64,000 nucleotides of DNA from Bacteroidota bacterium (GCA_020048915.1 JAIFLU010000088.1:1-64000); one strand, 5' to 3'; counted from the first letter of the stretch, positions 12,900-26,535 are shown. Numbers and translations: made by a program. Notes: generated from the sequence alone by a model not told the origin.

Positions 12900-14990
12900 A
12901 TGAATAAAGTAATTCTCATACTTTCCGTTGCAATATTGATGATTTCGACATTTCCCTCGAAGTCGCAGGAAATCAATAAATTTTTTCCTGAAAAAGACCT
13001 GATTACAACCGGAATTTATTATTACCCGGAACATTGGAACGAAAACCAGTGGGAACGAGATATCAAGAAGATCTCCGAAATGGGTTTTGAGTTTGTTCAC
13101 CTTGCCGAATTTGCGTGGTACAAAATGGAACCCGACGAAGGAAAATTTGATTTCGCCTGGCTCGATAAAGTGGTAAACCTATGTGTAAAATACAATCTGA
13201 AGGTAGTAATGTGCACTCCTTCTGCAACCACACCTACCTGGATGAGGCTAAAATACCCGGAAACATTCATCATGGATGGTCATTACATCCGGGCCGAAAA
13301 TGGCACGCGTGGATTGGAATCTATTGTTAATTCCAAATACCGCATGTTTGTAGAACGAATTGTGACCGAAATGGCCAAGCGTTACGGGAAGAACGAGCAT
13401 GTGACCGGATGGCAAATCGACAACGAACCACCAGCTCTTCCCGATTACAGCCTTTCGTCGCAGGAAGCTTTCAGGCAATGGTTAAAAAACAAGTATAAAA
13501 CTGTCGATGCGCTTAATTCAGCCTGGGGAACAGCCTTTTGGAGCCAATGGTTCAATAGTTTCGATGAGGTTATCATTCCGAATACTAACCTTGTGGGTTG
13601 GTGGGGCAATAACCCTCATGCATTGCTCGATTTTAAGAGATATTCGGCCGATTCTCAAGCCGAGTTTCTTGACCTACAGGCAGGAATTCTGCGAAATTAC
13701 ATTCTCAAAAATCAGTATATTACCACCAATTATACTGCTGTATGCACAGGTTCTGATCCCAGGCGGACAAAGAAACTTGATTTTGCTACCTATACCGCTT
13801 ATCCCAACGGTGGTTCCGATAATTTTGGCGACTTAGGCTTCCGCTTAGGGAGTAGTAAACCTATCCTCTTTGCTTCGGAATATTATAAATCTGTGGGCGG
13901 AGCAACCGGAGTAATGGAAATGCAACCAGGCCCGGTTAATTGGGGAAGTTACAATCCGCTTCTCTTGCCCGGCACGGTGCGGTTGTGGCTGCACCATTCC
14001 TTTGCGGCAGGCGGAAAACTTGCCTGCTCATATCGGTTTCGTCAGATTCTATATAGCGCCGAGCAATACCATTCGGGTGTAATACAAACGGATGGCGTAA
14101 CTCCTTCCCCAGGTGGAGAAGAGTACATGCTGTTTATGAAAGAAATTAAAGAACTCCGTACACAATACAAATCGGGTACAAAAATGCCCGAAAAGCTAGC
14201 TGCACGGTCAACAGCGATACTCTGGAATCTCGAAAACTACTGGACTATCGACAGGCAAAAACAAACATGGCAATGGGATGCATGGAACTACCCTGTTAAA
14301 TACCTGGAACTTGCCAAATCGTTGGGTGCCCCGACGGATGTTATCCCGGAAACTACCGATCTGTCGAAATATAAATTCGTTATTGTTCCGGCATACGAAA
14401 TGGTCGATTCGGCCTTGGTAAAGAAATGGAATGATTATGTGTTAAATGGCGGAAATTTGGTAATTACATGCCGCACGGCAACCAAAGACCGCCGGGGTCA
14501 TTTCTGGGAAGCCGGATGGGCAGCCCCGATATCAGGCCTCATTGGCGCACAGGTGCAGGCAACGGATATGCTTTCGGGGAATGCCAAAGGCGAAATTCTG
14601 ATGAAGTCGAACCTTTATAATTGGAACAACTGGGCCGATTTGCTTTTGCCCGGAAAGAACAGTGAGGTTATTGCCACATTCAATAATCAGTTCTATAAGG
14701 GCAAAGCTGCCGTAGTAAAGCATAAGGTCGGGAAAGGCACTGTAACCTATATTGGCGTGGATACCGACGATTCCAAACTGGAAAAGGATATATTGCGCGG
14801 CATCTATACTGCTGCCGAAGCAACAACCGAAGATTATCCCCAGGGTATTTATGTTTATTGGCGCGATGGTTTTAACATTGCTGTGAATTATTCGTCTGGC
14901 GATTACCCCATGAATATACCTGCCAATGCGAAAATCCTTGTTGGCGAAAAAACATTAAAACCTGCAGGAGTGCTGATTTGGAGCGAATAG
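12900..14990 (+). CDS. Exported beta-galactosidase, glycoside hydrolase family 42
   Basis: 696-residue secreted GH42 enzyme, clearly a different branch from the one at the start of the cluster. Signal peptide about 1-23. The barrel begins GIYYYPEHWNENQWERDI, the classical GH42 opening. Acid/base is Glu176 in GWQIDNEPPA and the nucleophile is Glu340 in VMEMQPGPVNWG, both in textbook positions. The trimerisation domain follows (about 415-620: FVIVPAYEMVD, YVLNGGNLVIT, then RRGHFWE), with a short C-terminal beta domain. It should hydrolyse beta-galactosides, here probably galactose exposed after defucosylation. It sits 23 bp after the second fucosidase gene and 47 bp before the GH31 gene. Confidence 0.9.
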   Translation: MNKVILILSVAILMISTFPSKSQEINKFFPEKDLITTGIYYYPEHWNENQWERDIKKISEMGFEFVHLAEFAWYKMEPDEGKFDFAWLDKVVNLCVKYNLKVVMCTPSATTPTWMRLKYPETFIMDGHYIRAENGTRGLESIVNSKYRMFVERIVTEMAKRYGKNEHVTGWQIDNEPPALPDYSLSSQEAFRQWLKNKYKTVDALNSAWGTAFWSQWFNSFDEVIIPNTNLVGWWGNNPHALLDFKRYSADSQAEFLDLQAGILRNYILKNQYITTNYTAVCTGSDPRRTKKLDFATYTAYPNGGSDNFGDLGFRLGSSKPILFASEYYKSVGGATGVMEMQPGPVNWGSYNPLLLPGTVRLWLHHSFAAGGKLACSYRFRQILYSAEQYHSGVIQTDGVTPSPGGEEYMLFMKEIKELRTQYKSGTKMPEKLAARSTAILWNLENYWTIDRQKQTWQWDAWNYPVKYLELAKSLGAPTDVIPETTDLSKYKFVIVPAYEMVDSALVKKWNDYVLNGGNLVITCRTATKDRRGHFWEAGWAAPISGLIGAQVQATDMLSGNAKGEILMKSNLYNWNNWADLLLPGKNSEVIATFNNQFYKGKAAVVKHKVGKGTVTYIGVDTDDSKLEKDILRGIYTAAEATTEDYPQGIYVYWRDGFNIAVNYSSGDYPMNIPANAKILVGEKTLKPAGVLIWSE

Positions 14991-15037
14991 TATAATTAAA
15001 AATCATCTCAAATAAATTTTTCAAAGACCTTTAACAC

Positions 15038-17860
15038 ATGAAACGAATTACTCTTTTTACAATTCTTCTGTATATTGCAGGGAATCTGCTGGCTTCCGGC
15101 CCGGTTCAGACATTATTGAACGGCATGAGGGTTACCCCCAAAAATGGAGCAGCCAGGACAATTGAAATTAGTGTGGTAACCAACCGGATTATTCGTGTTC
15201 AGGCATCGCCCGAAACGGTAATCCCAACTATTCAAAGCCTGTGTGTTGTGCCATTTCCGACAATAAAAACACCTTTCAAAGTTATCAGCGACGCAAAATC
15301 TGCCCAACTGTCTACCGATGAACTTACCGTGAAGGTTTCCCTGCTTACAGGTGAAATTTCGTTTCTGGATAAATCCGGAAAAGCGCTGCTACAGGAAGTT
15401 AAGAACGGAAGAAGTTTCAAACCTTTTACTGTTGACAACGACAGCGGATTCACCATGCAGCAGGTATTCACAGGCACAGGGGGAGAAGCTATATACGGAC
15501 TCGGCCAACACCAATCGGACGATTTCAATTATAAAAATAAAAGCGAAGATCTCTTTCAATACAATACAAAAGTGTCGGTGCCGTTCATCATTTCGACCAA
15601 TAATTACGGAATTTTGTGGGATAATTATTCACAAAGCAAATACGGCGACCCGCGCGATTATAAAGACCTGAACCAGTTTACGCTCTACGATAAAGAGGGC
15701 AAGGAAGGTTTTCTTACCGCTACCTATGCCCAAAAAGGCGGGGATACTATCGTCCGTCAAGAGTCGGCGATCGATTACGAAAACCTGACAACTGTGAAGA
15801 AGTTTCCCTCTAACTTTAATTTCAATGATGCTGCAATTGTTTGGGAAGGGTCAATTGTTTCGGATCGGGCGGATATCTTCAAATTCAGCCTCTACTATGC
15901 CGGTTACACAAAAGTGTGGCTCAACGATTCGCTCATAGTGCCAGAGCGCTGGAGAACATCATGGAACCCGAATACCTATAGGTTCTCCTTTCCGATGGAA
16001 AAAGGGAAACGCAACAAATTAAGATTGGAATGGAAACCTGACGGCGGAGTTTCATACATCGGGTTGAAAGCCCTCTCTTCGAGTCCGCTGGAGAAAAACG
16101 GAAATATCTCTTTCTGGTCCGAAATGGGCGACAAAATGGATTACTATTTTATCGCCGGTAATAACATGGACGATGTAATCAGCGGTTATCGCACGCTAAC
16201 CGGTAAAGCCAGTATTATGCCAAAATGGGCAATGGGTTATTGGCAAAGCCGCGAGCGTTACAAAACGCAGGACGAATTGCTGAATGTGGTATCGGAATAC
16301 CGCAAGCGCAATATCCCGCTGGATAATATCGTGCTCGACTGGAACTATTGGCCCGAACCAGCATGGGGGAGCCATCAGTTCGACCTGAAACGTTTTCCGG
16401 ATGCCAAAGGCATGGTTGATTCGGTACACAAACAAAATGCAAATATCATGATCTCGGTATGGCCTAAATTCTACGTTTCGACTGACCATTTCAAACAATT
16501 TGATAAGAAAGGATGGATGTACAACCAGGCAGTGAAGGACAGCGTACGCGACTGGATTGCCCATGGATATGTAGGATCCTTCTACGATGCATACAGTGCC
16601 GGTGCCCGCCAGCTCTTCTGGAACCAGATGAAAGACAATCTTTATCTTAAGGGATTTGATGCCTGGTGGATGGATGCTTCGGAGCCAAATATCAGGGACT
16701 GTACCGATATGATATATCGTAAAAAATTGTGTGGCCCCACCGCTCTGGGTTCATCGTGGAAATACTTTAACACATACGCCCTTATGAATGCGGAAGCCAT
16801 TTACAATGGGCAACGTAAAGAAGATAACAATAAGCGCGTTTTTCTGCTTACCCGTTCGGGCTTTTCAGGTTTACAGCGTTATTCTACTGCCACCTGGAGT
16901 GGTGATATTGCAACCCGGTGGGAGGATATGAAAGCACAAATATCGGCCGGGCTCAACTTTGCAATGTCGGGCATTCCTTTCTGGACAATGGATATTGGTG
17001 GTTTTTGTGTGGAAAAACGGTACGAAGCCAGTCAGCGCATTTTTGACCAAACCGGCCAGGAAAATGCTGACCTGAACGAATGGCGTGAGCTCAACCTCCG
17101 CTGGTTTCAGTTTGGGGCATTCTGCCCACTCTTCCGGAGCCATGGACAATTCCCCTTCCGCGAAATTTACAACCTCGCCCCTGAAAATCATCCTGTTTAC
17201 AAAAGCCTCGTTTATTACGACGAGCTGCGCTATCGTTTGATGCCGTATATCTATTCACTGGCAGGTATGGCTTATCACAACGATTATACGCTGATGCGCT
17301 CCCTGGCAATGAGTTACACAGCCGACAAACAAACGTATGGCATTGGCGACCAGTTTCTGTTTGGCTCGGCATTAATGGTTTGTCCGGTTTACAGCTACAA
17401 AGCCCGGAACCGCGAAGTGTATTTCCCTGCCGGAAATAAATGGTACGATTTTTATACCGCCAAACAGATAGAAGGTGGCCAAAAAGTGATTGTGGAAGCG
17501 CCGCTTGAACAAATTCCTCTTTTTGTCCCCGCTGGTACAATTCTTCCGGTTGGGCCTGTAATGCAGTTTGCATCAGAAAAGAAGGCCGAGAACATTGAAA
17601 TTAATGTCTATCGGGGAAAAAACGGGAAGTTCAGCCTTTATGAAGACGAAGGGGTTAATTACAATTACGAAAAAGGAGCTTTTTCAACCATCAGTTTCGA
17701 ATATAACGATGCCGAAGGAACACTTACCATTGGTGACCGCCAGGGTAGCTTTGAGGGTATGTTGACCAGCCGTGTTTTCCATATTGTTTTTATCGGACAA
17801 ACAACTTCTCAGCCTAAAATAGTAAATTATAATGGGGCCAAAAAAGTGGTAGTATTATAA
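15038..17860 (+). CDS. Exported alpha-xylosidase-like GH31 enzyme with PA14 insert
   Basis: 940-residue secreted GH31 enzyme. Signal peptide about 1-19. The N-terminal beta-sandwich (about 25-215, GEAIYGLGQH) is interrupted or followed by a PA14 domain (about 218-350: YYAGYTKVWLNDSLI, KLRLEWKPDGG). The catalytic barrel runs from about 390 to 720 with YWQSRERY, DNIVLDWNYW, nucleophile Asp546 in DAWWMDASEPN and acid/base Asp623 in WSGDIATRW; two C-terminal beta domains finish it. The PA14 position and the WMDASEP motif are those of the alpha-xylosidases that take xylose from the non-reducing end of xyloglucan oligosaccharides (Xyl31A type), rather than of alpha-glucosidases. With fucosidases and galactosidases beside it, xyloglucan side-chain removal is the best reading; specificity is inferred. 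Confidence 0.88.
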   Translation: MKRITLFTILLYIAGNLLASGPVQTLLNGMRVTPKNGAARTIEISVVTNRIIRVQASPETVIPTIQSLCVVPFPTIKTPFKVISDAKSAQLSTDELTVKVSLLTGEISFLDKSGKALLQEVKNGRSFKPFTVDNDSGFTMQQVFTGTGGEAIYGLGQHQSDDFNYKNKSEDLFQYNTKVSVPFIISTNNYGILWDNYSQSKYGDPRDYKDLNQFTLYDKEGKEGFLTATYAQKGGDTIVRQESAIDYENLTTVKKFPSNFNFNDAAIVWEGSIVSDRADIFKFSLYYAGYTKVWLNDSLIVPERWRTSWNPNTYRFSFPMEKGKRNKLRLEWKPDGGVSYIGLKALSSSPLEKNGNISFWSEMGDKMDYYFIAGNNMDDVISGYRTLTGKASIMPKWAMGYWQSRERYKTQDELLNVVSEYRKRNIPLDNIVLDWNYWPEPAWGSHQFDLKRFPDAKGMVDSVHKQNANIMISVWPKFYVSTDHFKQFDKKGWMYNQAVKDSVRDWIAHGYVGSFYDAYSAGARQLFWNQMKDNLYLKGFDAWWMDASEPNIRDCTDMIYRKKLCGPTALGSSWKYFNTYALMNAEAIYNGQRKEDNNKRVFLLTRSGFSGLQRYSTATWSGDIATRWEDMKAQISAGLNFAMSGIPFWTMDIGGFCVEKRYEASQRIFDQTGQENADLNEWRELNLRWFQFGAFCPLFRSHGQFPFREIYNLAPENHPVYKSLVYYDELRYRLMPYIYSLAGMAYHNDYTLMRSLAMSYTADKQTYGIGDQFLFGSALMVCPVYSYKARNREVYFPAGNKWYDFYTAKQIEGGQKVIVEAPLEQIPLFVPAGTILPVGPVMQFASEKKAENIEINVYRGKNGKFSLYEDEGVNYNYEKGAFSTISFEYNDAEGTLTIGDRQGSFEGMLTSRVFHIVFIGQTTSQPKIVNYNGAKKVVVL

Positions 17861-18076: not shown

Positions 18077-18562
18077 TTACTTTGTTGCAATGCCGTATTC
18101 GTCCTCCGAAACTGCTGTTAACCAAACCACATTCCCTTTTTGCAGGTTTGTGCTTATCGCAATATGGGTTAGCCCGGAATCGGGAGCTGCACCTTGCCAG
18201 TGCTCTGTATCTGGAGGAATCTTTACAATATCGCCTTTGTGCAACACCTGGGCAGGTTTTCCTTTTTCCTGATAATACCCCTTGCCGTCTGTAACAAGGA
18301 GTATTTGCCCTCCCGGATGTTTGTGCCATTTGGTTCTTGCCCTGGGTTCAAAAGTTACATTGCCAATGGAAGTATTATAGGTGCTGTCGTTGTTTACAAA
18401 CATTTGAAGCCATGCCGTACCCGTAAAGTTGTTGTTGGTAATTTTATCTCCTTTTGGAAAAACTGGTTCTGTTTTCTGTCCCTTAGTCACATGTTGAATA
18501 TTATTACAACCAACAATTAAAATAGTTAGAAACAGTATGCTGAATTTTAAAATGCATTTCAT
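18077..18562 (-). CDS. Cupin-domain lipoprotein
   Basis: 161-residue protein with a lipoprotein signal: hydrophobic core then LTILIVGC, Cys19 being the probable lipidated residue. Residues about 60-150 form a single cupin barrel; metal-ligand histidines lie in TKWHKHPGGQILLVTDGKG and in the second motif PPDTEHWQGAAP. The usual Glu of cupin motif 1 is replaced by Gln (GGQILL), as in the small cupins often found next to carboxymuconolactone decarboxylase-like genes. That partner is indeed immediately upstream (22-bp gap). Role unknown; a metal-dependent enzyme or binding protein in the same small-molecule pathway is likely. The terminator at 17941-17993 ends the transcript. Confidence 0.8.
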   Translation of the reverse strand: MKCILKFSILFLTILIVGCNNIQHVTKGQKTEPVFPKGDKITNNNFTGTAWLQMFVNNDSTYNTSIGNVTFEPRARTKWHKHPGGQILLVTDGKGYYQEKGKPAQVLHKGDIVKIPPDTEHWQGAAPDSGLTHIAISTNLQKGNVVWLTAVSEDEYGIATK

Positions 18563-18584: not shown

Positions 18585-19322
18585 TTATTTTATGTTTTTC
18601 AAGACTTCATTCAAAACCGTCTGTGCATCTTTAGCTTCTTTTTCTCCTATTGTTGATTTTATGATCCCCACAAATTCTTGCAACTTTTCGGGGGTAATGC
18701 CAACATTCAAACAAATATTCAGATGCGAACGCAACATGGGTTCTGCACCACCAATGCTACTAATCACGGATATGGTTACCAGCTCTCTTTCGGTGTAGGT
18801 TAATATATCGCGTTCAAAAATATCAGCAAACAGATGTTCTTTGAGAAATATGTCCATTTGGGGTGCAAATGCGGAATACCCTGTTTTCGGACCATCCTGA
18901 GGCGTTCCAAGCAGTTTTTCTAAAATCTCTTTTCCCCGCTCGTATTTGCTTCGTTCGTCCTGAATGGGAGATGCTTCGGCTCCCAAAACATCCTTGAAGC
19001 CTTTGGCTTTGCGCTCATCCAATACCTCCATAAAGGTTTGCAGCCCCCGAATACTTCTTGGAAATCCGCAATAGGCATACAAGTGAACGATTACTTCTTT
19101 GATTTGGTTAATGGTAAGACCAGATTCAAGGCCTGCATTTAGCTCCGTCTTTAATTTTGACAGATCTCCCTTTGCCGTTAAGGCGGCAATGGCAATAATG
19201 CTTTGTTCCCCATGACTTAATGCTACTTTCTTATTCATATTGCTTTGTGCATTTATGACATAGGAAAAACAGCATATGGCCATTAATAACACCATGAGCG
19301 TTTTGATTTTATTCCTTTTCAT
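18585..19322 (-). CDS. Exported carboxymuconolactone decarboxylase-family protein (two CMD domains)
   Basis: 245 residues from the ATG at 19320-19322; an upstream in-frame TTG at 19337 is less likely because the ATG directly starts a signal peptide (MKRNKIKTLMVLLMAI, cleavage after INA). Two CMD-type helical domains follow: about 35-105 (SIIAIAALTAKGDLSKL, then IKEVIVHLYAYCGFP) and about 150-240 (DILTYTERELVTISVI, LRSHLNICLNVGIT). The classical AhpD-type CxxC redox pair is absent: only one Cys appears in the first domain and one in the second. Members with this double domain and signal sequence are frequent next to cupins and short-chain or alpha/beta hydrolases; the reaction is not known. 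Same transcript as the cupin gene. Confidence 0.82.
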   Translation of the reverse strand: MKRNKIKTLMVLLMAICCFSYVINAQSNMNKKVALSHGEQSIIAIAALTAKGDLSKLKTELNAGLESGLTINQIKEVIVHLYAYCGFPRSIRGLQTFMEVLDERKAKGFKDVLGAEASPIQDERSKYERGKEILEKLLGTPQDGPKTGYSAFAPQMDIFLKEHLFADIFERDILTYTERELVTISVISSIGGAEPMLRSHLNICLNVGITPEKLQEFVGIIKSTIGEKEAKDAQTVLNEVLKNIK

Positions 19323-19382
19323 AGTTCTGTTTTTCAATTATAAGCTCTGCTGCGAATAGAAGTATTGTAACTGAATACCTCT

Positions 19383-19616
19383 TCAATTCAATTGCTTTTT
19401 CAGAAAATTCATGACTTTGGTTCTCACTTCATCCGAATCGAACATGACTCCAAAATGGGGTGCGTCCTTTACAATCACAAGTTCATTGGGAACACCCTTT
19501 TGAGGTGAAGTACTGTTTCTTTCAGGCCCAAGAAATTGTGGCCAGTCTTGTGCAAAAAGCTGGGTCGCAAAAGCCACCAGTAAAAAAGTAGTTGTAAAAA
19601 TTAGTTTGTTTTTCAT
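19383..19616 (-). pseudogene. Chimeric stub: start of a PQQ-repeat protein joined to the end of an alpha/beta hydrolase
   Basis: 77 codons. The first 40 give a signal peptide (LLVAFATQLFA) followed by QDWPQFLGPERNSTSPQKG, the hallmark N-terminus of exported PQQ-binding-like beta-propeller proteins. The remaining residues (VKDAPHFGVMFDSDEVRTKV, then a short FLKKQLN tail) are the C-terminal helix region of an alpha/beta hydrolase, with the catalytic-His context APHFG. Neither half can fold alone, so this is the scar of a deletion that removed the rest of two neighbouring genes while keeping a frame open. The upstream ATG 14 codons earlier (19658) is not needed. It may still be expressed as an exported peptide, but function is unlikely. 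Confidence 0.7.
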
Positions 19617-19673
19617 TTTGGTAGTTATATATGAATGTTTATTGTGGTTTTGGAACAAAAAGCAGGCTTAAAA

Positions 19674-20159
19674 CTAATGCGAGTCAGGAGTTTGGCCCGG
19701 ACTTGGAGGAGTCATCAACCGTGTGAATGATAGTGAGCCTAATTTCCAGGTGCCATTTTGTTTCACATAGACTTCTGTCACCATAAATGGATTTGTCACT
19801 TCGTTTCCACCAACAACAGCCAACAAATCAATTCTATTTAAAAGAATGGCAGTATTGTCAATGATATTTACTGAAACTTCATGAATATCTGCTTTCTTGT
19901 ACCAAATGCCTCCACTTTTAATGATATTGACCTCCTGTTCTGTTCCCCAGGCTCCTCCCATGTGGATAAACATCGCTTTTTCGTGAAAGAGTTTACTCAG
20001 TACATCAGCATTTTTGTCGGCCATCCATTGCCACTTGTCTTTTGAAAGGGTAACGATTTCCTGTTCTGCCGGGGTGAAACTCTTTGTTGCAGGATTTTGG
20101 GCAAACGATCCTTGTACACTCACGATCACTAATAATAAACCTAGAATTGTTGTTTTCAT
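19674..20159 (-). CDS. Exported NTF2-like (DUF4440-type) protein
   Basis: 161 residues with a signal peptide (about 1-20, ending SFAQ). Residues about 30-145 follow the SnoaL/NTF2-like pattern: a long first helix (PAEQEIVTLSKDKWQWMADKN), ADVLSKLFHEKAMFIHMGG, and a closing sheet with VTEVYVKQNGTWKLGSLSFTRL. These cone-shaped folds bind small hydrophobic ligands or act as isomerases or lyases; no catalytic residues can be assigned. It lies 41 bp downstream of the alpha/beta hydrolase gene at 20201-21313 and probably shares its transcript, so both products would act outside the inner membrane on the same kind of compound. Confidence 0.75.
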   Translation of the reverse strand: MKTTILGLLLVIVSVQGSFAQNPATKSFTPAEQEIVTLSKDKWQWMADKNADVLSKLFHEKAMFIHMGGAWGTEQEVNIIKSGGIWYKKADIHEVSVNIIDNTAILLNRIDLLAVVGGNEVTNPFMVTEVYVKQNGTWKLGSLSFTRLMTPPSPGQTPDSH

Positions 20160-20200: not shown

Positions 20201-21313
20201 TTAATCCAATCCTTTTTCTTTTAGCCATTTCGACATCAGGTCGGCTATCTCTAAATTATTTAAATCCGAAAACGGGAAATGCGTATTGCCTTTAATTCCT
20301 ATTTCAGGCAAATGAACCACTGTGACATCGCCGCCGAGCTTGTTCACGGCATCTCTCCACTTCCTGGCCATTTCCAGTCGTGCACGCCAGCCATCCTGGC
20401 CGGGGTTATCCATGGGTTTGTCGGGAATATTATCTCCGTAGTAAATAATGATCGGGATTTTGGTAAGCTTCATAAAATCGGATAACGGCACCCCAAAAGC
20501 GGTGAGTGTACCCCCGGCCATTGGAATAGGGGCCGGTACTTCTCCTTCGGGAAACAGAAAACCGCTTCCCGGTTCGTAAGAAACAATGGCTTTTATGTTT
20601 TGATTTTTGATAGCGGTTGCCCAGCCCATGCCACCGGAATGTGAATGCGTGACAAGGACTCCGGTACCAATTTTATTAAACAGCGCCGAAATAGCATCGG
20701 TATTCACAGTCATATCAATTGGCCCAACATTTGGCGTCATGGCACGGAAATACTGGTTTAGTGTGGCTGAATCGCGTGCAAACTGCACTCCTTCAAAATA
20801 GTTAGGCCATATGCCTACCCGAAAAGTGCCAAACCACCCCTGTTCGTCGGGAGTGGGATTAATGGTTCCGGCAGCAGTGCTTCGGCCGGCATTGCCTCTT
20901 CTGGGTTGATCGATGAGGTAAACCCCAAAACGTTTGCGCAGGAAAATGTTTTGATAGCCTTCGCGTCCGTCGGGTGTGGTTTCCCAGGTTTTGGAAAATT
21001 GTCCGATTCCATGCCACATCACTAAAGGATATTTACGGGCATCCACTGGAATCTGGTAAAACACATAGGCATGATCGCCATGAAAGGTTTGTCCTGTCGG
21101 TGTTTGATTGTACGGATCGAATGTGCCGGGATTGGTAATCACGGTTCCTCCCACGGCAAAGCTGCCTTGTTCCTGAATCAGGATAGGTTTTTGTTTTTCT
21201 GCTTTTTGGGCAAAAGTAGGTAAACCTGCCGAAAGTACAGTAAGTATAAATAGTAGACTACAGGCACTGGATTTTTGTAAGGCCTTTGTTAATAAAGATA
21301 TTTTTTTAGCCAT
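20201..21313 (-). CDS. Exported alpha/beta hydrolase
   Basis: 370-residue secreted hydrolase. N-terminal signal about 1-36 (long, ends TFAQ). The core contains VMWHGIGQFSKTWE (oxyanion-hole loop), GVYLIDQPRRGNAGRS, the nucleophile elbow VTHSHSGGMG with Ser226, and a C-terminal His context GIKGNTHFPFSDLNN. This is the family of alpha/beta hydrolases with a THSxSG elbow that is common in Bacteroidota and Proteobacteria; substrate unknown. Its 293-bp upstream region contains a 40-bp site that is repeated almost exactly in front of the hydrolase gene at 24435-25484 and the AraC-type regulator, so it is probably controlled by that regulator. Likely first gene of a transcript running left. Confidence 0.82.
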   Translation of the reverse strand: MAKKISLLTKALQKSSACSLLFILTVLSAGLPTFAQKAEKQKPILIQEQGSFAVGGTVITNPGTFDPYNQTPTGQTFHGDHAYVFYQIPVDARKYPLVMWHGIGQFSKTWETTPDGREGYQNIFLRKRFGVYLIDQPRRGNAGRSTAAGTINPTPDEQGWFGTFRVGIWPNYFEGVQFARDSATLNQYFRAMTPNVGPIDMTVNTDAISALFNKIGTGVLVTHSHSGGMGWATAIKNQNIKAIVSYEPGSGFLFPEGEVPAPIPMAGGTLTAFGVPLSDFMKLTKIPIIIYYGDNIPDKPMDNPGQDGWRARLEMARKWRDAVNKLGGDVTVVHLPEIGIKGNTHFPFSDLNNLEIADLMSKWLKEKGLD

Positions 21314-21483
21314 ATTAGTTGATTTATTATTTTATTTCAGATACAGTTTGCTATATATAGAACAGCCATTTCAAAGCTTTTTAAATACGGTTGCTTAAAG
21401 TTGAATGCTGTTCTAAACAGTTATCCCAGTTATGGATGGAAATAACTCCACATTACAAAGTTGAGATGAAAAAACCAATAAAG

Positions 21484-21523
21484 TTGTATACAGATTACTT
21501 ATTCTTATACCTGAATTACTGAA
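21484..21523. promoter_or_regulatory. Putative AraC-type operator, copy A (direct repeat, 21-bp phase)
   Basis: Starts TTGTATACAGATTACT and ends ATTACTGA. About 36 of 40 bases equal the site at 25530-25570. Inside are two half-sites about 21 bp apart (GATTACTTATT at 21493-21503 and AATTACTGAAA at 21514-21524), the phasing typical of AraC-family activators. It lies about 170 bp upstream of the hydrolase gene that starts at 21313. Direct observation is the repeat; binding by the AraC-type protein is inference. Confidence 0.65.
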
Positions 21524-21606
21524 ATTATTGCAGGTTCGTTTAGATATGTTTACGTATCGAATAGCCTTGTTTACAGCGGTATTGAGGTAGGGGCTTCCTT
21601 TCCAAA

Positions 21607-22392
21607 CTACAGCTTTTCCTGGTATTCTTTATGGAAAGTATAAACGAGGCTTACATTCCAAAGTAAATCAGCTCCGGATGTAATAGTTGATTTCAGTTTT
21701 TTATTAATTAATGCCGAGACGCTAAGCGGAAATTTCTTCTTACTTATTGACAAGATTGCATTTAAATATGTACCCTGTTTTTGATCCATTTTCAGATAAT
21801 AGATTTGTGGACTAAGTCGGACAACTATCTGTTTCGTGATTGGGATGCCGGATATGCTACCTCTGAACGAAATCATGTTGGTATTTTGGGTGACATACTT
21901 TTCCAGCCCCCGGGTGTAAAAATAATAGACTCCTGCATTGATATTTTTTGTGATCATGTAGTTTGGGAAAATTTCACCTGCAACATACCTGTCGGCCCGA
22001 GTGGTTGAAGTTCCGGAAGATGGATCTGTAACTGACTTAAATGATAACGAAGGATTAGCTCCAATATTCAACCTGAACCGGTTATTGGTGAAAGCTTTAT
22101 ATCTCCACCAGAAAACAATAGCCCAGGGTTTACCTTCCAGAGAAAAGCGAAACTGCGGTTCGAAGGTCAGTTTTCTGCCCATTACCATATCAAAAACAAT
22201 GGCTGGTTTTCCTAAAGTAAGGTTTGGAATGGTCGAGATACCTTTGCTTGTAATGGTTACAGCACTTGTGAAATTAGTTGTTTTCAAAACGATGCTGTCT
22301 TTATTTTGTGCAGTTAAGGTATTTGAAAGACCTGCAAGAAGTAAAAACACTATCAGTTTTATAGAGGTAGGATGGTTTTTGTAGTTTGACAT
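21607..22392 (-). CDS. Exported beta-rich protein, probable outer-membrane barrel, family unknown
   Basis: 261 residues. A signal peptide is clear (about 10-29, ending LTAQ). The rest alternates short hydrophobic and polar stretches with many aromatic residues at strand ends (WAIVFWWRYKAF, NINAGVYYFYTRGLEKY, PQIYYLKMDQKQGTYLNAIL), and the protein ends near NVSLVYTFHKEYQEKL, as expected of a small outer-membrane beta-barrel. I do not recognise a named family. It stands alone between two minus-strand hydrolase genes, with about 290-bp gaps on both sides, and has no copy of the AraC-type site directly in front of it. Confidence 0.6.
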   Translation of the reverse strand: MSNYKNHPTSIKLIVFLLLAGLSNTLTAQNKDSIVLKTTNFTSAVTITSKGISTIPNLTLGKPAIVFDMVMGRKLTFEPQFRFSLEGKPWAIVFWWRYKAFTNNRFRLNIGANPSLSFKSVTDPSSGTSTTRADRYVAGEIFPNYMITKNINAGVYYFYTRGLEKYVTQNTNMISFRGSISGIPITKQIVVRLSPQIYYLKMDQKQGTYLNAILSISKKKFPLSVSALINKKLKSTITSGADLLWNVSLVYTFHKEYQEKL

Positions 22393-22525
22393 TTTTTTAT
22401 TGATCTGATATTAGAGATTAACATTTAGATTATTTGCTACGCCAACATTGACAGATACACTCATTGCGGCGATATCAATCAAATCCTCTCACACAATTGG
22501 TTTCGCGCGCCGCTAAATACAGGGG

Positions 22526-22581
22526 ATATTTGTATACCCGGGGCTTCACCCCGGGCTACAAATATGCCGCTCCTTTGGAGC
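22526..22581. repeat. GC-rich double hairpin downstream of the carboxylesterase gene
   Basis: ATATTTGTA..CCCGGGG..CCCCGGG..TACAAATAT (22526-22565) forms a long stem, followed at once by GCTCCTTTGGAGC (22569-22581). Its GC-rich 'cccggggc...ccccggg' style contrasts with the surroundings and resembles dispersed hairpin repeats seen in many Bacteroidota genomes. It sits about 100 bp past the stop of the carboxylesterase gene and may stabilise or end that transcript. Confidence 0.6.
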
Positions 22582-22684
22582 TTAAAACCATTTTCTGTCA
22601 TCGTAGCATAGCCCCAATTTGAGGACAGGAATCTAATTGACAGATCTTTTTATTTTGAAAATTGAAGTGTGCTTACATTACCGC

Positions 22685-24334
22685 TTAAATGCCATTGGGT
22701 TGAAGCTTATCCCCCTTGTTCACTGCTTTTTCAATCACATCCAGTCTCGCTTTCCTTGGATCAAATTTACCGACCAGTTTACCATCCGGTTGGATATCGA
22801 GGATCTCGTTCGTTTTGGGATTGTATACAGGCCATTTCGGCAAATCTTTACCATTGGGGTTACCGGTTTTGGCAAAATTAACCCAATAGGCATTCATTAT
22901 CCTGGCGACCTCTTTGTCCTCGGAAGTCGGAGGGGGAGGAGGCGGTCCGAAGCCTCCTATTCCCAGATTGTCGAACGCAAAAGAAATATCGGTTCCATGT
23001 CCGGGGCCATACTTCATCCGCTCCTTCATGGCAGCCGGTACATACGAGAAAAGAAAAATGTAGGACGGATCACCAACGGCTGCAAAAGAACTGGCGGCGA
23101 ACCGTGCTGGCTCTGCCCATGCTTTATCTGTGTTAAATCGTGTGAGTACTTCAGCGAATTCTTTGTTACCATCAGGATCGTAGGCAGATTTTGCCTCCTC
23201 TTTCAGTTCCCCGAACAGCGAAAACAGTTCTTCCTTTGTACTGCTGGCATTCACAAAGGGGCCACCAATTTCAGCACTATTATTCCCAATGAGAAGCGGA
23301 ACGCGTGCCTGCCTTCCCGCCTTGTAAGCACTCTCTGCAGTTTCTGTTACCAGTTTGCCATCGAGGATAGGGCCAGAATAGATACGAGGGCCACCTTGTC
23401 CATCATTTTCCTGTCCACCGTCCACAATCTCTTCAACTTTCAGGGCACGTAATTTGGCCAGGGCTGACGCATCTGTTCCCTCGATTTTATGTTTACGGGC
23501 AAAGTTTATTCCGATTGTCTCCGCTGAAACAGGGTAGTACGAACTTGCATTTTCTTTGTTTATAGGTCTGCCGGTTAAAACGCCATCCCGACCGCCGCCT
23601 GAATGACTGATTGCCTTTTGAAAAAGTCCCTTTGCAGCCGGGATCGTCAAAAGTGAATGTACCGAAACCCCACCGGCTGAGAAACCGAAAATGGTCACAT
23701 TTTTAGGATTGCCTCCAAAGGCAGCAATATTCTGTTGTACCCATTTGAGTGCGGCAATCTGGTCCATAAAGGCGTAACTACCCTTGGGTTCATCGGGATG
23801 CTCCTTGCTCAGCGCAGGGAATGCAAAATGGCCAAGGCGCCCCAGACGGTAATTGATAGTAATCAGGATGACTCCTTTTTTGGCAAACTGACCTTCAACT
23901 CCTGCTCCGGAGCCGCTACCCCCTACGAAGGCGCCGCCATGGATCCATACCATTACCGGCAGCTTTGCATTCTTTGCAGCCCCGGCAGGTCTCCAGACAT
24001 TGAGAAACAAGCAATCTTCGGACGAACCTGCCTGAATTGTTCCCGGAGCAGCGCCCCAACCTCCCGCTGCGCAATTTGCACCAAACTTGGTGGCATCGCG
24101 TTCCCCCTGCCATGGGGTCATGGGTTGCGGAGGTCGCCAGCGAAATTCACCCACTGGAGGAGCAGCATAGGGAATTCCCTTAAAACTTTCGACATTCCCT
24201 TCCGATACTCCGCGAACCTTTCCAGAGACGGTTTGAACAACTGGTGCCTCTTTCGAAGAACTATTCACAATTGTTTGCTGGGCATACAGGTTGAAACTCA
24301 ATATGCATGCTATTCCTGTTATTATTCTTTTCAT
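22685..24334 (-). CDS. Exported type-B carboxylesterase
   Basis: 549 residues, full length for the family. Signal peptide about 1-19 (ends YAQQ). Family landmarks in order: [19 protein letters not shown], the EDCLFLNVW signature (about 106-114), oxyanion loop [13 protein letters not shown], and the nucleophile elbow [13 protein letters not shown] with Ser219; the acid and His follow in ISAEIGGP-like and [13 protein letters not shown] (His) segments. A poly-proline stretch with eight prolines ([10 protein letters not shown]) precedes the C-terminal helices. These serine hydrolases split carboxylic esters of small or polyketide-like molecules. It stands 100 bp downstream of another hydrolase gene and may be co-transcribed with it from the promoter near 25.5 kb. 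Confidence 0.9.
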
Positions 24335-24434
24335 TTTAGGTAGTATTAAATTTTATCATGTGTGCAAAAGAAACTTGTTTAGATTTTGTATTTGCCGATT
24401 GCGGCCAAATAGTATGGAATCAAGACTATCAACG

Positions 24435-25484
24435 TTACAGGTATTTACCAAAAAAATCGTTAAGCTTGCTCATGGCCTTAGCCACATATTCGGGAACATA
24501 ATACGTTTGAATGTGGGTAGCCCCTTCAATAAGGAATAATTCCTTTTCTTTTGTTCCGGTAGCCAACTTGAATGCACTGTCCGTCATGTAATACGTGTCG
24601 GCTTTGCTTCCAGCCATCATCAACAGGGGCTGATTGATTAAATCCATACTAGTGGCTGCATCAAATTCCATCAGGTCGAGCAGACTGCTCATGGTGTACC
24701 TGAAGGTAGAATTTGGGTGCGCATGGGTTCTGTTGTAATAATAGTGGCCTTCACGATACAGATCAAAAGGCATTTTATCGGCCATTTCATCCGTTGTTTT
24801 TGTATTGGCCGCATAGCGCACTTCACCACCGGAAGCTTCAAGGGCGCGGGCATCTGAAGCATCTTTTAACCGTTGCTGAATGGTGGATATCTGGGAGTCC
24901 TTGAATCCGTTACGCCTCACCAGCCCGGAATTAAACATGCTCAGCGTGGCCACAGCTTTAAATCGTTTATCGGTCTGAGCTGCTTTTAAGGTATATCCTC
25001 CACCACCACATATGCCCAATACTCCCAAACGACTGGCATCAACTCCGGCATATTGGGTAATAAAGTCGGCCATGCCGCGAATATCTTCAATGCGATTAGC
25101 AGGCTTATCCACATTGCGGGGCTGACCACCACTGGCACCCTGGTAGGCTGCATCGGCAGTAATGGCTATGTAACCCGATTCGGCCAGTCGCTGCGCATAT
25201 AATCCGGTAGTCTGTTCCTTAACTCCTCCGTTGGGATGAGCCACCACTACCGCCGGATATTTTTTTGACGCGTCGTAATTGGCGGGTGTATAAATATTGG
25301 CAGCGATATCAATGCCATTTAGTTTATAGGTTACAGGATGTATATTCACCTTGCCTGGCACATTTTCAGTAATTGCCTCTTTATAAACAAGACCAAAAGG
25401 GTTATTCAGAGTTTGACCTGAAGCAATGGTACTTATCGTCATGAATATGTATGTCAAATATTTGCTTTTTATATCTCGATTCAT
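24435..25484 (-). CDS. Exported dienelactone hydrolase-like enzyme with a cysteine nucleophile elbow
   Basis: 349 residues with a signal peptide (about 8-23, ends ASGQ). Alpha/beta hydrolase core: PAVVVAHPNGGVKEQ (oxyanion loop), YIAITADAAYQGASGG, and the nucleophile elbow LGVLGICGGGGYTLKAA in which Cys159 replaces the usual Ser. A Cys at this place is typical of dienelactone hydrolases. LLMMAGSKADTYY supplies the acid and EGATHIQTYY the catalytic His. It is the gene closest to the 40-bp repeated operator (46 bp between start and site) and is divergent from the AraC-type regulator, so it is the most likely direct target. Substrate unknown; neighbours (CMD-like, cupin) hint at ring-cleavage or lactone-type compounds, which is inference. 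Confidence 0.82.
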   Translation of the reverse strand: MNRDIKSKYLTYIFMTISTIASGQTLNNPFGLVYKEAITENVPGKVNIHPVTYKLNGIDIAANIYTPANYDASKKYPAVVVAHPNGGVKEQTTGLYAQRLAESGYIAITADAAYQGASGGQPRNVDKPANRIEDIRGMADFITQYAGVDASRLGVLGICGGGGYTLKAAQTDKRFKAVATLSMFNSGLVRRNGFKDSQISTIQQRLKDASDARALEASGGEVRYAANTKTTDEMADKMPFDLYREGHYYYNRTHAHPNSTFRYTMSSLLDLMEFDAATSMDLINQPLLMMAGSKADTYYMTDSAFKLATGTKEKELFLIEGATHIQTYYVPEYVAKAMSKLNDFFGKYL

Positions 25485-25529
25485 ATTGCTTTTTATTCTT
25501 ACAAAGGTGAAGCGAAATAACAGGAGCGT

Positions 25530-25570
25530 TTGTATACAGATTACTGATTCTTGTACCCTGATTACTGATT
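25530..25570. promoter_or_regulatory. Putative AraC-type operator, copy B (direct repeat, 21-bp phase)
   Basis: Lies in the divergent region between the hydrolase gene (start 25484) and the AraC-type gene (start 25639). It holds two exact copies of GATTACTGATT, at 25539-25549 and 25560-25570, start-to-start distance 21 bp, separated by CTTGTACCCT. The whole segment is nearly identical to copy A at 21484-21523. This is the arrangement expected for a tandem AraC-family binding site that could control both divergent genes. Confidence 0.7.
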
Positions 25571-25607: not shown

Positions 25608-25615
25608 TACCTTTG
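25608..25615 (+). promoter_or_regulatory. Possible -7 element of the AraC-type gene
   Basis: TACCTTTG matches the Bacteroidota -7 consensus TAnnTTTG exactly and lies 24 bp before the ATG of the regulator, just downstream of operator copy B. No convincing -33 element at the usual spacing was found, so activation or repression through copy B is plausible but unproven. Confidence 0.4.
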
Positions 25616-25638: not shown

Positions 25639-26535
25639 ATGGACGAAATAATGAAGCTGGATAATATATCGCAATATAATGCCCTGAGGGGGATCGAAAC
25701 ACTGCATCCATTGGTAAGTGTATTTGATTTTGCAAATATGAAACTCATACCGCAAGCCATGGCAAACTATGGCTTTTATTGTGTTTTCCTGAAAGATGCT
25801 GTATGCGGCGATTTGAAATATGGCTGTAATTATTACGATTATCAGGAAGGTACACTTGTGTTTATTGCCCCCGGCCAGGTTGTTGGGATCGGCAGCAAGC
25901 CCGGGACTACCATGCCCAAAGGCTGGGGCCTGCTTTTTCATCCCGATTTAATCCGGGGAACTTCCTTAGGTCACAATATTAAGCAGTATACCTTTTTCAC
26001 TTACGAAGCCAGGGAAGCCCTTCACTTATCGGAAAAAGAACGGCAAGTTGTATTGGATTGCATGGATAAGATTGATTATGAACTTCGGCAGTCAATTGAC
26101 AAACATAGTAAAACACTGATTACAAATAATATCGAGCTGCTTCTAAATTACTGTATGCGGTTTTACGATCGCCAGTTTATTACCCGCAGCGAAGTAAACA
26201 GAGATATTCTAGCTAAATTCGAGAAATTGATCGACAATTATTTTCAGTCGGAAATAGCGCTTACTGCCGGGTTACCAACGGTTAAGTTTTGCGCTGAACA
26301 ATTGTTTCTGTCTCCCAACTATTTTGGCGATCTGATCAAGAAAGAAACCGGAAAGTCTGCCCAGGAAAACATCCAGTTAAAGGTAATGGGCATTGCGAAA
26401 GAAAGAATATTTGATAAGAGCAAAACCATGAGCGAGATAGCTTATGAATTAGGTTTTAAACACCCACAGCACTTCAGCAGGATGTTTAAAAACGAGACGG
26501 GATTCACACCGAATGAATACAGGTTGTTGAATTGA
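25639..26535 (+). CDS. AraC-family transcriptional regulator
   Basis: 298 residues from the ATG at 25639 (an in-frame TTG two codons upstream is possible). The N-terminal region (about 15-165) is a cupin-like sensing domain: GFYCVFLKDAVCGDLKYG, YYDYQEGTLVFIAPGQVVGIG, GWGLLFHPDLIRGT. The C-terminal AraC domain (about 200-298) has two helix-turn-helix units, KFCAEQLFLSPNYFGDLIKKE and MSEIAYELGFKHPQHFSRMF followed by KNETGFTPNEYR, the family signature. The layout matches the AraC regulators often placed beside oxidoreductases or hydrolases in Bacteroidota. It is transcribed away from the hydrolase genes, and the 21-bp-phased repeats at 25530-25570 and 21484-21523 are its probable sites. The inducer is not known. 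Confidence 0.9.
   Translation: MDEIMKLDNISQYNALRGIETLHPLVSVFDFANMKLIPQAMANYGFYCVFLKDAVCGDLKYGCNYYDYQEGTLVFIAPGQVVGIGSKPGTTMPKGWGLLFHPDLIRGTSLGHNIKQYTFFTYEAREALHLSEKERQVVLDCMDKIDYELRQSIDKHSKTLITNNIELLLNYCMRFYDRQFITRSEVNRDILAKFEKLIDNYFQSEIALTAGLPTVKFCAEQLFLSPNYFGDLIKKETGKSAQENIQLKVMGIAKERIFDKSKTMSEIAYELGFKHPQHFSRMFKNETGFTPNEYRLLN

Follow-up and report, generated by a model that had tools for sequence, protein, structure and literature searches.

The window analysed here is a 64,000-nucleotide stretch from a Bacteroidota bacterium (GCA_020048915.1, JAIFLU010000088.1:1-64000), in which the gene of an AraC-type regulator lies beside two units of minus-strand genes. Two similar intergenic elements, here called operators A and B, stand in front of the two units. 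Operator A is found between the genes of a 370-amino-acid (aa) hydrolase (20201-21313) and a 261-aa protein (21607-22392), and operator B between those of a 349-aa hydrolase (24435-25484) and the regulator (25639-26535), which is where an earlier note on this DNA had placed two matching segments. Comparative evidence argues that A and B are operators of the AraC-type gene beside B, and we treat them as predicted binding sites.

25531..25570, plus strand: putative operator B, tandem AraC boxes TGTATACAGATTACTGATT and TGTACCCTGATTACTGATT with a 21-bp phase, profile score 36.7 bits
21485..21523, plus strand: putative operator A, boxes TGTATACAGATTACTTATT and TATACCTGAATTACTGAAA, oriented relative to the target as in B, profile score 32.0 bits
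25639..26535, plus strand: AraC-type regulator of 298 aa, with a cupin-like N-domain and a C-domain of two helix-turn-helix (HTH) motifs

Operator B consists of two 19-bp boxes set 21 bp apart, each of which contains GATTACTGATT without a mismatch (at 25539 and 25560; exactly two copies, while shuffles give an expectation of 0). This is the arrangement of a tandem operator, i.e., two direct-repeat boxes about 21 bp apart, and it bears out the phased direct repeat described in the earlier note. Operator A has the same two boxes, the first almost intact and the second diverged. In an ungapped comparison over 40 bp, A and B share 34 of 40 positions, so the near-match that had been claimed is real, with a count slightly lower than the approximate 36 of 40 given for it. 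A one-box pattern with up to three mismatches matched the window four times against 0.3 expected, and three of the four matches are inside operators A and B. When a 39-bp pattern was searched through the 6.58-Mb genome with three mismatches allowed, only A and B matched (reversed-pattern control, 0). When 46 non-redundant operators from the regulator's relatives, with the window's own sites left out, were made into a profile, it likewise ranked B and A first, the next best place in the genome reaching 17.9 bits. The genome-wide motif search proposed in the earlier note thus returned two sites only, both in this cluster.

With the AraC-type protein as query, GTDB genomes yielded 232 relatives, and the best 80 (57-81% identical) were taken for upstream analysis. 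The same operator, about 38 bp long, lies upstream of 78 of these 80 with its orientation kept, mostly 100-107 bp before the start codon, and the relatives that have it span Bacteroidales, Flavobacteriales, Sphingobacteriales, Cytophagales and Chitinophagales. The consensus, TATACARATTACNGATTNNTNTACCANTWTTACTGAT, has two boxes with two contact groups per box, as expected in the AraC family for one two-HTH monomer per box. The operator also follows the regulator across genomes. In a phylum sample of 148 Bacteroidota genomes, a site (E<=3e-4) was present in 11 of the 12 genomes with a close regulator (at least 54% identical) and in 2 of the 136 others; in the twelfth genome (G066), the site at the expected place is weaker. 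Additionally, in an order-level genome set, sites above 30 bits occurred only where a regulator of at least 56% identity was present. The earlier note had suggested that the adjacent AraC-type protein links both sites and their gene sets, and this comparison supports it: the operator is near-fixed before relatives of the regulator across the phylum, it tracks the presence of the regulator, and the gene set recurs alongside.

The -7 box of Bacteroidota promoters has the consensus TAnnTTTG (PMC9723704). Among 77 relatives, 58 have CAAANNT, the reverse complement of AnnTTTG, starting precisely 31 bp ahead of the operator's TATAC, and 7 more have it 30 bp ahead; its background frequency in the window is 0.2%. 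Where a locus has a second site, CAAA stands at the -31 offset in 7 of 9 cases, including A, and both window copies have it.

25502..25509, minus strand: -7-like box CACCTTTG of the 349-aa hydrolase unit, CAAA at -31 from operator B's TATAC
21456..21463, minus strand: -7-like box CAACTTTG of the 370-aa hydrolase unit, at an identical offset from operator A
25608..25615, plus strand: -7 box TACCTTTG of the regulator's own promoter, +75 from operator B's TATAC
21562..21569, plus strand: candidate -7 box TAGCCTTG, a 5/6 match to TAnnTTTG, exactly +75 of operator A

The minus-strand starts implied by these boxes would be at about 25497 (leader of about 13 nt) and about 21451 (leader of about 140 nt). 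Relative to them, the operator covers about -34 to -73, which is class II activator geometry: it lies over the -33/-35 region at a fixed spacing from the -7/-10 box. Since the -7 box stands at a fixed distance, each operator copy most likely activates the minus-strand genes. On the regulator's side, the relatives' own-promoter -7 box, TRnnTTTG, is found at +63/64 or +73-76 from TATAC, two classes about one helical turn apart. TAGCCTTG might be a relic of a regulator promoter at A, which is suggestive only; 5/6 matches to TAnnTTTG have a frequency of about 1% in the window. No clear own-promoter relic followed the second operators of other loci, and only the window's A has a candidate.

The regulator itself carries both marks of the AraC/XylS family. 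The two-HTH C-domain matches Pfam HTH_18 (65.3 bits, cut-off 33.6; 6e-18) and HTH_AraC (54.1 bits, cut-off 26.6). The N-domain has no Pfam sequence match, and its cupin-like fold is seen through a predicted model (pLDDT 83) that matches the regulatory domains of AraC and RhaR (E about 5e-5; TM 0.63-0.72 by target length). With the whole chain, the model matched ToxT and Rns, and the overall superposition was poor, which a different arrangement of the domains probably explains. All NCBIfam equivalog cut-offs were missed by far. Two genomes of the phylum sample (G071 and G154) hold seven paralogues of the regulator each at E<=1e-60, 39-59% identical, and these could serve to study the divergence of operator specificity.

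From sequence and comparison, we consider it highly probable that the regulator binds both A and B and activates the units behind them. Two subunits would occupy each operator, one per 21-bp box, placed so as to overlap the -33 region (class II), and would activate the minus-strand promoter whose -7 box is fixed 20-odd bp away. Operator B would then drive the 349-aa hydrolase, the carboxylesterase and the 261-aa protein, and operator A the 370-aa hydrolase, the NTF2-like protein, the 91-aa open reading frame (ORF), the carboxymuconolactone decarboxylase-family (CMD) protein and the cupin. Because B adjoins the regulator's own promoter, autoregulation via B is likely as well. The sites, how rare they are, their conservation next to the regulator, the constant promoter geometry and the recurring gene set are seen in the sequences themselves; protein binding, activation rather than repression, and operon structure are what we infer here. 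The units are made up as follows:

24435..25484, minus strand: 349-aa exported alpha/beta hydrolase, DLH/S15-like and weakly UilS-lactonase-like, first gene of unit B
22685..24334, minus strand: exported carboxylesterase (COesterase, 1.6e-111), unit B
21607..22392, minus strand: 261-aa exported protein with no family match, end of unit B
20201..21313, minus strand: 370-aa exported alpha/beta hydrolase ('EQGSFAVGG' family) with no Pfam match itself, first gene of unit A
19674..20159, minus strand: exported NTF2-like protein (DUF4440/SnoaL_3), unit A
19383..19658, minus strand: 91-aa ORF, apparently a fused relic, unit A
18585..19337, minus strand: exported CMD protein (3.1e-21), unit A
18077..18562, minus strand: cupin and probable lipoprotein, (R)-mandelonitrile lyase-like (134.8 bits against an NCBI cut-off of 140), unit A

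Most of these proteins have signal-peptide-like starts as judged by eye. A homologue of the 370-aa hydrolase at locus L003 matches Abhydrolase_6, and relatives of the 261-aa protein adjoin the same regulator in L003, L007, L016, G003 and G189. The 91-aa ORF resembles a PQQ-type exported enzyme at its start (DWPQFLGPERNSTS) and the C-terminus of an alpha/beta hydrolase at its end, again by eye, and has matches beside the same regulator in L003, L007, L011, L016 and L035. Reading towards the cluster at 12900-17860 on the plus strand are two large exported proteins with the look of glycoside hydrolases, one beta-galactosidase-like and one alpha-glucosidase-like.

The two operators may differ in age. 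In the window's nearest relatives, the 370-aa hydrolase type stands directly behind the operator, and the regulator tree places the window inside a well supported group with this arrangement. As the window's regulator nests among these, the target site at A is probably ancestral, with the B unit probably inserted later between it and the regulator. On a tree of 48, the operator-adjacent partner requires 18 changes, compared with a minimum of 7 and a mean of 27 after shuffling. Further operators that face likewise occur in the clusters L022, L025, L031, L044, L045, G003, G181 (three in a row) and G189 (two), and the second operator of G189 is flanked by a 261-aa-type gene and a CMD-cupin-hydrolase-NTF2 unit, an arrangement close to that of the window. 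The REQ-hydrolase/COesterase/DLH/NTF2/CMD/cupin set recurs with the regulator, e.g., in L004, L005, L008, L035, L044, L048, L065 and L080, and in some clusters two or three operators divide it. Another site in G181, unlinked and with its CAAA box at the proper distance, precedes an aldo-keto reductase of twin-arginine type (L154:5370; G181:C86, record position about 10369), and thus the regulator apparently acts in trans too.

Among 61 operator-adjacent partners tallied, aldo-keto reductases (17), mandelonitrile-lyase-like cupins (12) and Ahr-type aldehyde reductases (6) are followed by carboxylesterases (3), DUF4440 proteins (3) and others. A genome of the same genus (G004) has an aldo-keto reductase, a flavodoxin, an FMN reductase, a CMD protein and a YqhD homologue, and the YqhD homologue of G024 shares 57% identity with E. 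coli YqhD. In 75 of 85 loci, one or more of these enzyme types are nearby, a count that is descriptive only. Since aldo-keto reductases, Ahr-type dehydrogenases and clusters with a YqhD homologue lie behind the relatives' operators, we favour a reactive carbonyl or related electrophile as the inducer, with middling confidence and as a weaker inference than the binding and activation of A and B.

Several observations weigh against this account. Two of the 80 relatives (L017 and L018) are without an operator, both of them matches that lack their start. In G178, a strong site is present without a regulator at E<=1e-60; the assembly is fragmented, and the site lies on a 5.3-kb contig. While many relatives have aldehyde or ketone reductases as targets, the window's own targets include none, and its hydrolases and carboxylesterase are not carbonyl-reducing enzymes. 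Finally, Cys56 of the regulator, invariant in a 48-sequence alignment, is not conserved in more distant members. A role for it as a cysteine sensor is only a guess, and as a proven sensor it is not upheld. The G178 site (L153:2937, G178:C119) adjoins a cupin gene and a Crp-like gene, and the regulator is not on that short contig.

The same regulator could instead bind both sites to control catabolism of esters, lactones or aromatic compounds, with the hydrolases, CMD protein and cupin as pathway enzymes; the earlier note had guessed at lactones or aromatic esters. The cluster holds three hydrolases or esterases, the 349-aa protein weakly resembles UilS lactonase (72 bits against a cut-off of 400), and the CMD protein is PcaC-like, below the PcaC cut-off. 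However, every specific family cut-off is missed, no ring-cleavage or transport genes were seen in the cluster, and elsewhere in the phylum the operator's partners are mostly aldo-keto reductases, aldehyde reductases, cupins, CMD proteins and flavin proteins, flavodoxin and FMN reductase among them. We therefore regard catabolism as a rather unlikely role, and the guessed ligands fit poorly with the partners. Slightly less likely again is an oxidant such as hypochlorous acid (HOCl), the signal to which RclR, an AraC-type protein of E. coli, responds. CMD/AhpD-like, cupin and flavin proteins among the gene sets would suit it, as would an invariant Cys56 in the 48 close relatives, but this cysteine is lost in distant members and the resemblance to RclR (21% identity) is limited to the C-terminal half. 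Of the three inducer classes, carbonyls and electrophiles thus remain the favoured one.

The sites might also repress the divergent genes, as the edge of the operator is close to the -33 region and a protein bound there could also block the polymerase. AraC-family proteins with tandem boxes at such a position are typically class II activators, and the exact -7 spacing is kept phylum-wide, which is more than repression requires; we find repression improbable. That A and B, two alike intergenic copies 4 kb apart, are mobile- or repeated-element copies without a regulatory role is hardly credible, since their flanks are unrelated (identity 23/60 on one side and 21/60 on the other, promoter box excepted), which excludes a recent segmental duplication, the genome has no other copies, and conservation across the phylum is tied to the regulator.

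The predicted activation by the AraC-type protein through A and B would fit into a broader picture that we hold with some reserve and consider reasonable: a phylum-wide stress regulon (Bacteroidales, Flavobacteria, Sphingobacteria, Cytophagales, Chitinophagales) in which one AraC subfamily has a near-fixed operator of about 38 bp and a near-fixed promoter spacing, the enzymes are swapped from a carbonyl/electrophile toolbox, and clusters grow by operator-carrying units. The window would be a case of an added unit with its own operator copy, and offers a case for testing such growth and the nature of the inducer. To our knowledge, Bacteroidota operators are poorly charted, and this regulator-operator pair is unusually well supported for the phylum. 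Its rigid geometry makes target prediction easy in any Bacteroidota genome, gut Bacteroides included.

We found no described Bacteroidota AraC regulon like this one in the open-access literature. Its mechanism, AraC class II activation, would be an ordinary one of a known kind, and the regulon is strikingly conserved and apparently undescribed. AraC itself has a tandem direct-repeat operator with a 21-bp phase that abuts the -35 region, much as the window operators abut the -33 region. Sugar regulators of the AraC, RhaR and MelR type share the cupin-like N-domain fold and the two-HTH C-domain, but no sugar genes are among the operator-adjacent partners tallied. RclR is alike in family and in redox-type targets and differs in the targets themselves; as an orthologue it was rejected, the identity covering 154 C-terminal residues only. 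YqhC was likewise rejected as an orthologue (23% identity over 105 HTH residues only, E 2e-4), and in the yqhC-yqhD spacer the best operator-profile score was no better than in shuffles. In E. coli, YqhC with yqhD and dkgA forms the glyoxal/furfural response (PMC5297802, PMC8249747). Both systems have an AraC-family regulator, in the window a predicted activator, that is divergent from its targets, and both have very few targets. Relatives of the window regulator adjoin DkgA-type aldo-keto reductases and a YqhD homologue (57%), whereas the window cluster has hydrolases, NTF2, CMD and cupin proteins in place of YqhD and DkgA. Collectively, these likenesses suggest that Bacteroidota have a counterpart to the aldehyde response governed by YqhC.

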